This document shows, one piece after another, positions 1-44,864 of a stretch of DNA of 64,000 bases. Origin of the DNA: Candidatus Peregrinibacteria bacterium (GTDB lineage Bacteria; Patescibacteriota; Gracilibacteria; UBA1369; UBA12463); contig JAPLYO010000024.1 of NCBI GenBank assembly GCA_026395555.1, forward strand, positions 124,001-188,000, read 5' to 3'. The notes under the pieces are model-generated. The model was not told the origin of the DNA, did no database searches, and saw only the letters and a list, made by a program, of their open reading frames with translations. Every line of letters starts with the position of its first letter. Positions within the stretch are counted from its first letter, which is position 1. The position numbers were made by a program, and so were the translations under genes.

Positions 1-1097
1 AGCATACATTGGATCAGTGGATTTTGTCTGAGTTGAATACGCTCGTGAAATCGACGACCGATGCGATGGATAACTATAACTTCATGGAGGCGACTCGTCC
101 GATGATTACCTTTGCTGATGATCTTTCTAACTGGTACGTCCGTCGAAGCCGAAGACGTTTCTGGAAGTCGGAATCGGATGCGGATAAGCAGAGCGCCTAC
201 CAGACTCTGTATATCGTTCTCTATCGATTGTCTCAGTTGATGGCTCCGTATATGCCATTCTTGTCTGAGTATATGTATCAGGGTCTTACGAAGGGGATCG
301 CCGGCGAGAGCGAGTCAGTACACCTTACAAACTGGCCGGAGGCGGTGAAGAAGCTTATGAAGCCACTTCTCAACACCGAGATGCATATCGTTCGTCAGAT
401 CGTGAACTTGGGGCATAGCGCTCGTGCTAATGCTTCGATCAAGGTTCGCCAGCCGCTCGCCTCGGTGAGTATCGCTACGCCAGATGAGGTAAGCGTGGAT
501 GTGATCGAAAAGTATCGAGATATTATTCTCGAGGAGTTAAATGTGAAACAGATTGAGTACATCCGAGAGTTAGGCGATCGCGTGAAGATCAAGTATACGC
601 CAAAATCAAAACTTCTTGGTCCTAAATTCGGTAAGGACGTGCAGGATATTATTCGCATGGTGAAGTCTGGAGATATTCAGGCTATCGCAGGTGGTAGATA
701 TCAGGTTGGCTCGTTTGTTCTCAATGCTGAAGATATTGAGGTTGGCTATGAAGCGCAGGATGGCGCTGGAGTTGCTAGCGAAAATGGCTATACCTTGTTG
801 CTTGATACACATATCACCGAGACGCTGGTTCAGGAGGGGATTGCGCGCGAAATCGTGCGATTTGTTCAAGATATGCGCAAGGAGGCTACCTATGATGTCA
901 GTGATAGAATCTCTCTTGTCGTAGAATCTGAACATGTAGAAATAAGTACAGCGGTTACCGCGTTTGCAGATTATATCCGCAAGGAGACGCTTGCAGAAGA
1001 GCTACAACAGGGTGGTGCTTTTGATTCTGATCTCAAGAAAGTGTTAGAACTTGATACGTACAGCGTTACGGTTGCTATAGCGAAGTCGGCGAAATAA
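1..1097 (+). CDS. ileS: Isoleucyl-tRNA synthetase, C-terminal part (5' truncated)
   Basis: The frame is open from the left edge, so the gene starts outside the window. About 365 residues remain. They begin with LDQWILSELN, the start of the anticodon-binding region of class Ia IleRS, and include ANASIKVRQPLASV, a conserved stretch of the C-terminal domain of the longer IleRS type. IleRS charges tRNA-Ile in the cytoplasm. The catalytic HIGH and KMSKS motifs lie upstream and cannot be seen. The gene ends with TAA 32 bp before the next gene. The call is confident because the C-terminal domain order matches the family. Confidence 0.93.
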   Translation, partial: HTLDQWILSELNTLVKSTTDAMDNYNFMEATRPMITFADDLSNWYVRRSRRRFWKSESDADKQSAYQTLYIVLYRLSQLMAPYMPFLSEYMYQGLTKGIAGESESVHLTNWPEAVKKLMKPLLNTEMHIVRQIVNLGHSARANASIKVRQPLASVSIATPDEVSVDVIEKYRDIILEELNVKQIEYIRELGDRVKIKYTPKSKLLGPKFGKDVQDIIRMVKSGDIQAIAGGRYQVGSFVLNAEDIEVGYEAQDGAGVASENGYTLLLDTHITETLVQEGIAREIVRFVQDMRKEATYDVSDRISLVVESEHVEISTAVTAFADYIRKETLAEELQQGGAFDSDLKKVLELDTYSVTVAIAKSAK

Positions 1098-28262: not shown

Positions 28263-28277
28263 AGAATGGGCTTCGCT

Positions 28278-29879
28278 ATGCATCAAATACCCATAAATCA
28301 TACCCTGAAGGAGCTGGTCAGACAAGCGCTCGCGCTGCCTGTGAAGGATCAGACCGCCCTGCAACAACTCAAGAATACGTATTCTGCGAAGCATAAAGTC
28401 TCTACGCCTACGAATATGGAGCTCATTGAGGCATATAGGCACATGGCTCAACAGAAGGAAGTTACTGAGGATCGTGACTTCATGAAATTTTTGAGAAAGA
28501 GGGGAGTTCGATCGATGTCGGGAATTGTTTCTATCACGGTTATCACGAAAGCCTTCCCATGCCCTGGAAAGTGCATTTTCTGCCCGACGGAGCCTGGAAT
28601 GCCAAAGAGTTATCTCTCGAACGAGCCGGCGATTATGAGGGCTATTCTGAATGATTTTGGAGCATATCGACAAACGGTGAATCGTATTGATAGTTTAAAA
28701 CGTACGGGTCACGAAACGGACAAGGTAGAAATCATTGTTTCCGGTGGAACATTTTCTTTTTATCCGCATGCCTATCAGACGGCTTTTACGAGACAGATTT
28801 TTAATGCATTAAATTATCCGTTGAAACCTGCACGAAGTTTGCTGGAGGCACAGCAGTTAAATGAAAAAGCAGAAAATAGATGTGTCGGTTTGTCTTTTGA
28901 GACGAGGCCGGATCATATTACAGAATTGGAAGTGAAGCGCCTCGCTACGCTCGGCGCCACTAAAATCGAGATCGGTATTCAGTGTCTGGACGACGAGATC
29001 TACGCCCTCAACCAACGAGGCCACACGATCGCCGATGTGGCCAGATGTATGCAGCTCCTGAAAGATGGCTGTTTCAAAGTCAACGCCCACATGATGCCAA
29101 ATCTCTATGGCTCCACTCCCGAACGTGACTTCGAAATGACGAAGGAGTTATTCGATAATCCTGCCTTCCGACCGGACTGGATGAAGATCTATCCGACGAT
29201 GGTAGTACCGTGGTCTGTTTTGGAAAAAATGCATAAACGTGGCGAGTTCAAGGCATATTCTGATGAGGTGCTTGTCGATCTCATGTGCAAAATCAAGCCG
29301 CTCATCCCTGAATACGTTCGCGTTACGAGACTTTATCGCGATATTCCCGCACCGACGATTGTTGATGGCTCCAAAATTTCTAATTTACGGCAGGTGGTTC
29401 AGGAAGAAATGAAACGCCGTGGACTCCCATCGTGTCGATGCATCCGTTGCCGAGAGGTTCGTGATACCGTGGTCGACCCGAAGGACCTGCGCATGCGCGT
29501 AACTGAGTACGACGCCTCAAATGGTAGGGAGTATTTCATTCAGTGGGAAGATCCCGTTTCTGACAAGATTTGCGCGTTCATCAGACTCAGGTTTCCTTCG
29601 CAGTATTTTACCGGTAAAAAACATTTTATCAAGGAGCTCCAAGATTGTGCCCTTATCCGCGAGCTCCACGTCTATGGCATGCAGATCCCGCTCAACGATA
29701 GGGAAGAAGGTTCTCAACAGCATTTTGGCCTCGGAAAGACGCTTCTTCTGAAGGCTGAGGAGATATCCCGGGCCGCCGGATTCAAGAAAATGGCTATTAT
29801 CAGCGGTGTCGGAGTTCGTGAATACTACCGCAAAACCGGTTACCAGCTTGATGGAACATATATGGTGAAGGGGATTTAG
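28278..29879 (+). CDS. elp3: Elp3-type tRNA uridine(34) cm5 radical SAM / GNAT enzyme
   Basis: The 533-residue protein has a radical SAM cluster motif FPCPGKCIFCP (C95, C99, C102), SGGTFSFYP, FETRPDHI and IEIGIQCLDD, followed by HMMPNLYGSTPERD, a cysteine pair CRCIRCRE and a C-terminal GNAT acetyltransferase domain (HFGLGKTLLLKAEE; YYRKTGYQLDGTYMVK). Elp3 uses acetyl-CoA and SAM to put a carboxymethyl group on U34. The second half is rich in C-ending codons. Start taken at 28278 from the promoter. Confidence 0.93.
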   Translation: MHQIPINHTLKELVRQALALPVKDQTALQQLKNTYSAKHKVSTPTNMELIEAYRHMAQQKEVTEDRDFMKFLRKRGVRSMSGIVSITVITKAFPCPGKCIFCPTEPGMPKSYLSNEPAIMRAILNDFGAYRQTVNRIDSLKRTGHETDKVEIIVSGGTFSFYPHAYQTAFTRQIFNALNYPLKPARSLLEAQQLNEKAENRCVGLSFETRPDHITELEVKRLATLGATKIEIGIQCLDDEIYALNQRGHTIADVARCMQLLKDGCFKVNAHMMPNLYGSTPERDFEMTKELFDNPAFRPDWMKIYPTMVVPWSVLEKMHKRGEFKAYSDEVLVDLMCKIKPLIPEYVRVTRLYRDIPAPTIVDGSKISNLRQVVQEEMKRRGLPSCRCIRCREVRDTVVDPKDLRMRVTEYDASNGREYFIQWEDPVSDKICAFIRLRFPSQYFTGKKHFIKELQDCALIRELHVYGMQIPLNDREEGSQQHFGLGKTLLLKAEEISRAAGFKKMAIISGVGVREYYRKTGYQLDGTYMVKGI

Positions 29880-42476: not shown

Positions 42477-42562
42477 GCCGGAGTGGCGGAATGGCAGACG
42501 CGCTCGACTCAAAATCGAGTACTCGCAAGGGTGTGTGGGTTCAAGTCCCACCCCCGGCACCA
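42477..42562 (+). tRNA. tRNA-Leu (anticodon CAA)
   Basis: An 86-base cloverleaf with a long variable arm. The anticodon stem CTCGA/TCGAG holds loop CTCAAAA, so the anticodon is CAA (reads TTG). The T arm is GTGGG/CCCAC with loop TTCAAGT. CCA is encoded. The acceptor pairs GCCGGAG with CCCCGGC, leaving one A-C mismatch at position 6-67. It lies between obg and uvrC. Confidence 0.93.
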
Positions 42563-42572
42563 ATGAGAATTA

Positions 42573-44864
42573 CTATAACGTCTGCTTCAGTATCATCGCA
42601 GACTTCTTTCCTACGACGCGGGCGAGTTCGTCCATGGTGGCGTTTTTGATGGCGTGGAGGGAACCGAAGTGGTTGAGGAGTTTTTTCTTGGAGAGTTCGC
42701 CGATTCCGGGGAGGTCGTCGAGTTCGGAGGAGATGAGTGTTTTGTTGTGGGCGAGGTTGGAGTAAGAGACGGCGAAACGGTGGGACTCGTCGCGGATGCG
42801 TTGCATGAGGTGGAGGGCGTGCGAGTCTTTTGGAAGTTGAATCGACTGTGATTCGTGGGGCATGAAGATCTCTTCTTCTTGTTTAGCGAGTGAGCAGATT
42901 GGGATTTGAAGGTCCATGTTTTTGAGCACTTCGATGCCGATATTGAGCTGCCCCTTGCCTCCGTCGAGGACGATGAGGTCGGGTTTTACGGAGAATTTTT
43001 TGTGTTGTTCGATGAGTTTTCCTGTCTCGATCATCAAAAGAGTGGTGTGTGGAATTTTGATAAATCCTTCCTGTTCGTGTGGATTTTTTAATTCGTTAAA
43101 TCCGAACTCTTCATATGAGTTGATGAGATCATCTGTGGCTTGTATGTACCATTTTTTTATAGTCTTATTTTTCTCAATGAAGCGATACAGTAGCTGATGT
43201 GATAGTTGTTTGTGGTCGTATTTGTCGTCGACCCAGAGTTGTGTAATTTCCGCGGAAATTGATGTGTATTCCTTTTTCTCGATGAAACCTGCGAGCGCTT
43301 TTTCTTTTATGAAGAGGGTGTAATTTTCGAGATTGATGGGTTCCGGTTTCTTGTTTTTGGCTGGCTTCTCTTGTGTTTTTTGAATTGCCTCGGCGTACTT
43401 CTTTGTGGCTTTGGCTAGGGTAAATGTCGACTTGGATAAATATTTGAGGCGACGGGAGAGTACCTCGCGCATGGATGCGTAGTCGTCGGGTTTGCCGTGT
43501 GGGATCGTTGTGAGTTTGAATCGTCGGTACTCGGAGTTTGCCGGTGCGCCACTCTGCATGACGACCATGGATGCGACGGTCGAGGTGCCGCCAAAGTGAG
43601 AGATGTCATAACACTCGATGCGTTTTGGGGGTTTTGGAAGGTTGAGTACTTTTGCGAGACTCTCGAGGGATTCACGTGGAACGACCTCTTCTTTGAGCCA
43701 TTTTGCCTTCTGTTGGTGAGCGTAACTTTTGGCGTTGGCAAGGGAGAGCTCGAGGAGTTTATTCTTTTCGCCAATTTGTGGCCAGTGAATGTTTACCTTC
43801 TTGGTTCTTTTCTCTGAGAGCCATTTTTCTAATAGTGGAATTGACTCGATATTTTCCGGAATGAGAATTTCCTCAGGAATGTTGGCACTGGTGATGTAGT
43901 AATCGCGGAGTATTGCCTCGGTAATTTCGCTTGTGGATGGGATTTCTTGCTTATCGTGATTTCCGGTGAATATGAAGTTTTCTTGACCCATGATGCGACC
44001 CTCGCGGATCTGAAAGAGGTTGGTGTAGATTTTGTTATTATCCACAACGAAGTGGAAGACGTCACAGTCTTTTCTGTTGGCATCGCTGATTCTTTGCTTC
44101 TCGAACATTTCCTCGATGAGTTTGATTTTGTCGCGTGTGGCTGCAGCTTTTTCGAACTTCTTATTCGTGGCGTGTGTCATCATTTCGTCCTGGAGTTGCT
44201 TGATGAGTTCGTCCGGCTTTCCCTTGAGGAAGTTGATAACTTTTTCGATAATTCCTCCGTACTCCTGAGGATTTACCTTGCCGATACATGGTGCGGCGCA
44301 ACGTTTGATATAGCTGTAGAGGCATGGATATTTGAGAACTTTGTTCGTGACCTCTACCTCGTTTTCGTTGTTATGGAAGCCCTTGTAGGCGATGTTGAGC
44401 CCGCAGTGACGATATGGAAGTACTTTTCGAAGAATATCGAGCGTCTGTTTGACCTTACGACCTGCGGTTTTTGGACCGAAGTAGAGTGCTTTATCTTTGT
44501 CTTTTCTTCGCGTAATGGTGACACGCGGAAAGTCCTCGGAAATATCTATTTTTATATAGACGAAGTTTTTGTCGTCCTTCATGAGGACGTTGTATTTCGG
44601 GCGGAACTGCTTGATCCAGTTCGTTTCGAGCATGAACGCCTCCAGATCGGTGCCTACCTCGATGTACTCGATATCGTCGATCAGGCTGACCATATACTCC
44701 TTCCTGTCGCCGAGATCGGCTGCTTTTTGGAAGTAGCTTCGTACTCGATTACGGAGATTAATTGCCTTTCCGATGTAGATGATTTTCCCATCGGCATCTT
44801 TCATCTTGTACACACCCGGAGATGTAGGGAGTTTGGCGAGGGTGTTTTCGAGTTTTTGGTTCAT
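42573..44864 (-). CDS. uvrC: Excinuclease ABC subunit C with an inserted GNAT-like domain
   Basis: The 763-residue protein is about 150 residues longer than usual. The GIY-YIG domain (LPTSPGVYKMKDADGKIIYIGKA), the Cys motif region and UVR motif are normal. The RNase H-like nuclease has its catalytic residues as YDISHFGG (D420), LIVLDGGKGQL (D634) and RDESHRFA (H695). Residues about 475-625 lie between the first and second catalytic Asp and look like a GNAT acetyltransferase: ISAEITQLWVDDKYDHKQL and EEFGFNEL. A helix-hairpin-helix tail ends it. UvrC makes both incisions in nucleotide excision repair. Start taken at ATG 44864, giving MNQKLENTLAKLP. Confidence 0.93.
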   Translation of the reverse strand: MNQKLENTLAKLPTSPGVYKMKDADGKIIYIGKAINLRNRVRSYFQKAADLGDRKEYMVSLIDDIEYIEVGTDLEAFMLETNWIKQFRPKYNVLMKDDKNFVYIKIDISEDFPRVTITRRKDKDKALYFGPKTAGRKVKQTLDILRKVLPYRHCGLNIAYKGFHNNENEVEVTNKVLKYPCLYSYIKRCAAPCIGKVNPQEYGGIIEKVINFLKGKPDELIKQLQDEMMTHATNKKFEKAAATRDKIKLIEEMFEKQRISDANRKDCDVFHFVVDNNKIYTNLFQIREGRIMGQENFIFTGNHDKQEIPSTSEITEAILRDYYITSANIPEEILIPENIESIPLLEKWLSEKRTKKVNIHWPQIGEKNKLLELSLANAKSYAHQQKAKWLKEEVVPRESLESLAKVLNLPKPPKRIECYDISHFGGTSTVASMVVMQSGAPANSEYRRFKLTTIPHGKPDDYASMREVLSRRLKYLSKSTFTLAKATKKYAEAIQKTQEKPAKNKKPEPINLENYTLFIKEKALAGFIEKKEYTSISAEITQLWVDDKYDHKQLSHQLLYRFIEKNKTIKKWYIQATDDLINSYEEFGFNELKNPHEQEGFIKIPHTTLLMIETGKLIEQHKKFSVKPDLIVLDGGKGQLNIGIEVLKNMDLQIPICSLAKQEEEIFMPHESQSIQLPKDSHALHLMQRIRDESHRFAVSYSNLAHNKTLISSELDDLPGIGELSKKKLLNHFGSLHAIKNATMDELARVVGKKSAMILKQTL

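Follow-up and report, generated by a model that had tools for sequence, protein, structure and literature searches.

A predicted GNAT-fold domain inside the RNase H-like nuclease of UvrC in Peregrinibacteria and their relatives

The uvrC gene and its inserted domain

In the window, which is the whole 64,000-nucleotide stretch of Candidatus Peregrinibacteria DNA analysed here, uvrC lies on the reverse strand (Table 1) and encodes a protein that passes the UvrC family profiles TIGR00194 (537 bits, cut-off 285) and NF001824 (539.5 bits, cut-off 451). It shares all the domains and catalytic residues of bacterial UvrC (TIGR00194; 2nrt, 3c65, 8b0q), in the usual order, and is 45% identical to the UvrC of T. 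maritima over the aligned RNase H and helix-hairpin-helix parts. The catalytic triad of the solved UvrC nuclease domain is present as D420, D634 and H695, whose columns (D419, D633 and H694 in the numbering of the 762-residue translation) are invariant among the 22 UvrCs of alignment A4, and the GIY-YIG catalytic domain is present together with this Asp-Asp-His set. Because the known catalytic residues of both nucleases are conserved, the window UvrC most likely still makes both incisions. In many relatives of the same order, with UvrCs of about 680-750 residues, the match stops short of the C-terminal helix-hairpin-helix that the window UvrC has (L013-L015, L018, L022, L024, L025, L027-L030). 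A tRNA-Leu (CAA) gene (window 42477-42562, forward strand) lies on the strand opposite to uvrC, in the gap between obgE and uvrC.

Table 1. Features of the window uvrC gene and of isoleucyl-tRNA synthetases (IleRS) with inserted domains. Residues are those of the window UvrC; coordinates are window positions unless a locus is named.
Feature	Coordinates	Strand	Basis or remark
uvrC, 763 aa	42573..44864	-	ATG at 44864, stop included
GIY-YIG nuclease domain, residues 16-92	44589..44819	-	PF01541 40.8 bits; Z 17.2 to 1yd6
UVR (UvrB-interaction) motif, residues 218-252	44109..44213	-	PF02151 23.9 bits, cut-off 21.5
RNase H-like nuclease, first half, residues 405-479	43428..43652	-	PF08459; superposes on 2nrr
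Catalytic D420	43605-43607	-
Predicted inserted GNAT-fold domain, residues 479-626	42987..43430	-	PF13673, PDB profile, AF2, structure alignment
Degenerate acetyl-CoA loop DHKQLS, residues 550-555	43200..43217	-	alignments; consensus R/Q-x-x-G-x-G/A
YEEFGF, GNAT YxxxGF motif, residues 584-589	43098..43115	-	alignment of relatives
RNase H-like nuclease, second half, residues 627-706	42747..42986	-	alignment to 2nrt
D634	42963-42965	-	alignment to 2nrt; invariant in alignment A4
H695	42780-42782	-	alignment to 2nrt; invariant in alignment A4
C-terminal helix-hairpin-helix, residues 713-756	42597..42728	-	PF14520 27.6 bits, cut-off 27
IleRS of 1406-1805 residues with in-frame GNAT inserts, two with histidine phosphatase	L312:1583-5800, L313:1605-6074, L314:2050-7464

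In solved UvrC structures a short loop joins helix 1 to strand 4 of the RNase H-like nuclease, whereas the window UvrC carries about 148 residues there, and the spacing between its DISH and DGG motifs is 214 residues, against about 65-116 in insert-free UvrCs. The earlier note, made from the letters alone, had described a UvrC of 763 residues with D420, D634 and, between them, about 150 extra residues at 42990-43442. The open reading frame from the ATG confirms the length, both aspartates stand where they had been placed, with H695 in addition, and the 148 residues found lie within a few codons of those limits. Insertions between helix 1 and strand 4 were called relatively rare in a survey of the RNase H-like superfamily (PMC3985635).

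The insert is a GNAT by fold, as the earlier note had supposed from its resemblance to these acetyltransferases. PF13673 (GNAT) matches the full protein with 29.1 bits (cut-off 23.6) and the insert alone with 33.1 bits, and a profile of 15 inserts, the search that had been proposed as a check, retrieved 145 PDB sequences up to E 10 (best E 1e-9), of which the 60 best are all named acetyltransferases or related proteins. The AF2 prediction, made with an alignment of 22 sequences in which seven cover the insert, gives an ordered domain (model residues 481-612) with the secondary structure b-a-b-b-b-a-b-a-b, which is the GNAT order; in VIA-align it matches 2r8v, the GNAT domain of N-acetylglutamate synthase, with Z 15.8 over 137 residues at 2.5 A. 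The two halves of the nuclease in the model (396-700) still superpose across the insert on the UvrC RNase H domain 2nrr (139 residues, 1.5 A), in agreement with an insertion inside the nuclease domain, while the pTM of the model is 0.45 and the GNAT-nuclease interface is not resolved in it. An intein at this site was rejected, as a Pfam scan of the insert to E 10 found no Hint domain and the predicted fold is that of a GNAT.

Like other GNAT acetyltransferases (PF13673/PF00583; 2r8v, 3d8p, GCN5), the insert has the YxxxGF motif besides the predicted fold and the order of secondary structures, but it is embedded in another enzyme and its acetyl-CoA loop is degenerate. Elp3 and other fused-GNAT proteins likewise link a GNAT to a nucleic-acid enzyme. 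In the Elp3-type fusions, though, the GNAT follows at the C-terminus as a domain of its own and is not nested in another. An Elp3-like protein (radical SAM and GNAT) is encoded by the window's other GNAT-bearing gene (28266-29879, forward strand); PF00583 matches in this genome are the Elp3-like protein, a 210-aa ORF and the UvrC insert.

The DNA of the insert is AT-richer than its flanks, as had been noted earlier: its GC content is 39.0% against 48.3% for the remainder of uvrC, in which the lowest value of any stretch of the same length is at least 42.8%, its GC3 is 45.9% against 61.5%, and its product is richer in lysine. Such a composition might speak for a misassembly, a frameshift or an unstructured linker that merely resembles a GNAT, but the insert is conserved in 90 genomes of the class, an ordered GNAT is predicted and the Pfam match is above the cut-off, which together refute an artefact and leave it a negligible probability. 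The reading frame of uvrC is also kept in two sister genomes at 94-96% identity, so the insert is not an assembly error.

Distribution and inheritance of the insert

The insert is not a one-off: across most of the class of the window genome, a UvrC normally has it. It was found in 30 of the 30 relatives read, and in this sample, which is not a census, a recognisable GNAT is present in 90 of the 124 genomes of the Peregrinibacteria-like class whose UvrC is readable, while 5 of the same 124 have a long insert without a profile match and 21 a short loop; in the remainder of the phylum 25 of 31 have a short loop and 2, of family f36, carry a GNAT. The named relatives with the insert in the genome collection are Peregrinibacteria and Peribacter (L061-L066). 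Farther afield, the earlier claim that UvrCs do not commonly have such an insertion held, with no comparable insert in the other 74 loci, from many phyla, wherever the DISH-DGG spacing was readable (about 70 diverse UvrCs). Within the class, the families that read TGA as sense have no insert, and at least two members of f18 and most members of f17 have a short loop.

The more the rest of UvrC has diverged, the more the insert has diverged too (r = 0.59; 2000 permutations gave no value as high), a pattern that long common inheritance would produce. On the UvrC tree the state of the insert changes at most ten times, a figure that over-counts, as L012 was scored insert-free despite its insert and the guests of f17 and f112 were scored as the insert, and that stands on a tree whose deep branches are weak and do not separate gain from loss. 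One insert without sequence similarity to the profile (L066) gives a GNAT-like AF2 model with Z 10.0, weak evidence since the alignment contained recognisable GNATs. An f18 member (L157, genome G423) has an insert of 92 residues in which just the C-terminal portion of the GNAT is left, and the domain there seems to be in the process of being lost.

The open-access literature, including that on Patescibacteria and Peregrinibacteria, gave no description of a UvrC with a GNAT or another inserted domain (subscription papers and InterPro architectures lay outside the scope of the search), and PADLOC gave no match. A partial likeness is the signature insert of the Deinococcus UvrC, a lineage-specific insertion of 16 residues in a surface loop, which is not a known domain (PMC5867870); the two are alike as lineage-specific insertions into a UvrC surface loop, whichever loop that may be.

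Acetyl-CoA loop and selection on the insert

One could suppose that the GNAT binds acetyl-CoA and serves as a regulatory or catalytic module, which would acetylate UvrB, a DNA-binding protein or UvrC, or sense acetyl-CoA, and so tune repair to the energy state; a binding or regulatory module had been considered in the earlier note as well. Among 98 aligned inserts (including four f17 inserts from one or more different GNAT lineages), R/Q at position 1 and G/A at position 6 of the acetyl-CoA loop are both kept in 61, and the full R/Q-x-x-G-x-G/A motif in 16; the commonest form, RGKKLG, has a basic residue where glycine is usual. The tyrosine of YxxxGF, kept in the window, is found in 74 and GF in 88 of the 98. 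These figures speak for such a module, as does the purifying selection described below, but 37 of the 98, from several separate families, lack one or the other of the two loop residues, and families f2, f3 and f8 have lost the loop entirely and yet retain the insert. In the loop of the window UvrC, which the earlier note rightly called degenerate, positions 1, 4 and 6 are D, Q and S, respectively, and the GNAT of the window fails the acetyl-CoA motif, so that in this genus the module would need to work with an unusual loop. Judged by the alignments, the degeneration is one that occurred in the window's genus, since most relatives keep R/Q1 and G/A6; another genus of the same family has RGQKLS. 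Moreover, unrelated domains take the place of the GNAT in f17 and f112 and some members have a short loop, hence repair does not need it. All in all, we consider such a module unlikely, though more likely than a pure passenger.

In comparisons of three close genomes of the window's genus, the insert has a dN/dS of 0.07-0.08 and the remainder of UvrC one of 0.03-0.05; the insert is therefore constrained by purifying selection and is not decaying freely. This bears on the opposite supposition, that the GNAT is a passenger without any role and that selection merely prevents misfolding of the host nuclease. The unrelated guests at the same loop, the short repeat-like peptides found there in other Patescibacteria and the short loops of the f18 and f17 members agree with it. 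However, the domain has been retained through dozens of families with small genomes, and its dN/dS is so close to that of the nuclease that more constraint is seen than expected for 148 useless residues. Sequence data hardly distinguish a passenger from a folded module; we regard a GNAT devoid of any role as rather improbable.

Guest domains and the origin of the insert

The helix 1-strand 4 loop of UvrC tolerates guests, for unrelated domains occupy it in sister lineages. Above their Pfam cut-offs, we found there an aminoglycoside-adenylyltransferase-like nucleotidyltransferase (L153), a serine hydrolase (L155), a DUF559 nuclease (L208, 119 bits) and other GNATs (L164, L205, L206, L207), several of these cases, including the first three, being single metagenome-assembled genomes and for that reason provisional. 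Another UvrC (L228) apparently has two tandem GNATs, the first of which matches Pfam and the second weakly. That one site takes in several unrelated domains makes a module dedicated to acetyl-CoA regulation less plausible. Repeat-like peptides occur in the same loop in other Patescibacteria (L265, L268, L269, L278, L279), e.g. RLPLDKGGTR...PPLIKEG and SVIPRKAGIQ, which resemble genomic repeats translated in frame.

The GNAT type of f17 is found in the UvrC of five genomes from three genera, and in four of these copies the domain still begins with a methionine, as though an entire gene had been taken up. Its profile (A7) has strong matches, with E below 1e-47, in 8 of 353 genomes of the class, inside UvrC in G284, G307, G312, G317 and G331 and inside isoleucyl-tRNA synthetase in G262, G326 and G347; at this threshold no free-standing copy, and no genome with two copies, was found among the 353. 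In G317 the UvrC is split across two contigs and the GNAT adjoins the second half. All seven aligned copies keep Q-x-x-G-x-G, and a branch supported 96/83 separates them from the GNATs that are widespread in UvrC. One copy from UvrC groups with one from IleRS (93/90), which suggests, with a small tree and long branches, that this GNAT has moved between hosts.

Further domains occur in these IleRS proteins, namely a histidine phosphatase in two and a phage MuF C-terminal domain in one. In the IleRS of G012, G017, G021 and G024 a histidine phosphatase lies between query residues of about 522 and 528, a place that differs from that in the f17 IleRS, so this domain may have entered IleRS twice. 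The window genome's own IleRS is spread, with internal stops, over two open frames (536 and 570 residues; window 1-1094; G000:C8:121863-125094), probably owing to a frameshift or an assembly error at the left edge of the window. It is conceivable, though we hold it somewhat doubtful, that some enzyme domains in this class are obligate guests in the loops of housekeeping enzymes, moving between hosts, where the function of the guest is needed and the host is a mere carrier.

For the UvrC insert itself, we find it on balance probable that the GNAT is an old guest, which entered at a loop tolerant of insertions and has stayed in UvrC as a folded module. On this view a complete GNAT was captured early in the history of the class in the helix 1-strand 4 loop of the nuclease and has been inherited with UvrC since, as its fold, its distribution and the correlated divergence indicate. 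In the RNase H fold, the loop that leads from helix 1 into strand 4 lies at the far pole, away from the catalytic end that holds D634, so a folded guest could project from the nuclease without blocking incision. In the window's genus, the acetyl-CoA loop has been lost while the fold and purifying selection persist, and the GNAT most likely no longer acetylates; it is probably non-catalytic and retained as a folded module with a structural or contact role in UvrC, one that is not easily excised cleanly. Against a captured guest it can be said that a useful function would explain purifying selection and wide retention equally well, and that acetyl-CoA binding, at least ancestrally, is favoured by the R/Q1 and G/A6 of most inserts (61 of 98) and by the tyrosine, which most inserts also keep.

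Domain insertion itself is known, but a complete enzyme fold that interrupts the catalytic domain of a repair nuclease through most of a class is unusual, and it makes UvrC, an essential repair enzyme, a host for guest domains. With at least five kinds of guests at one loop, one of them shared with isoleucyl-tRNA synthetase, these uncultured, very small bacteria offer a natural experiment on the tolerance of essential enzymes for inserted domains and on the exchange of such domains between them, and a testable set in which the same host carries an active-looking GNAT, a degenerate GNAT, other guests, or none.
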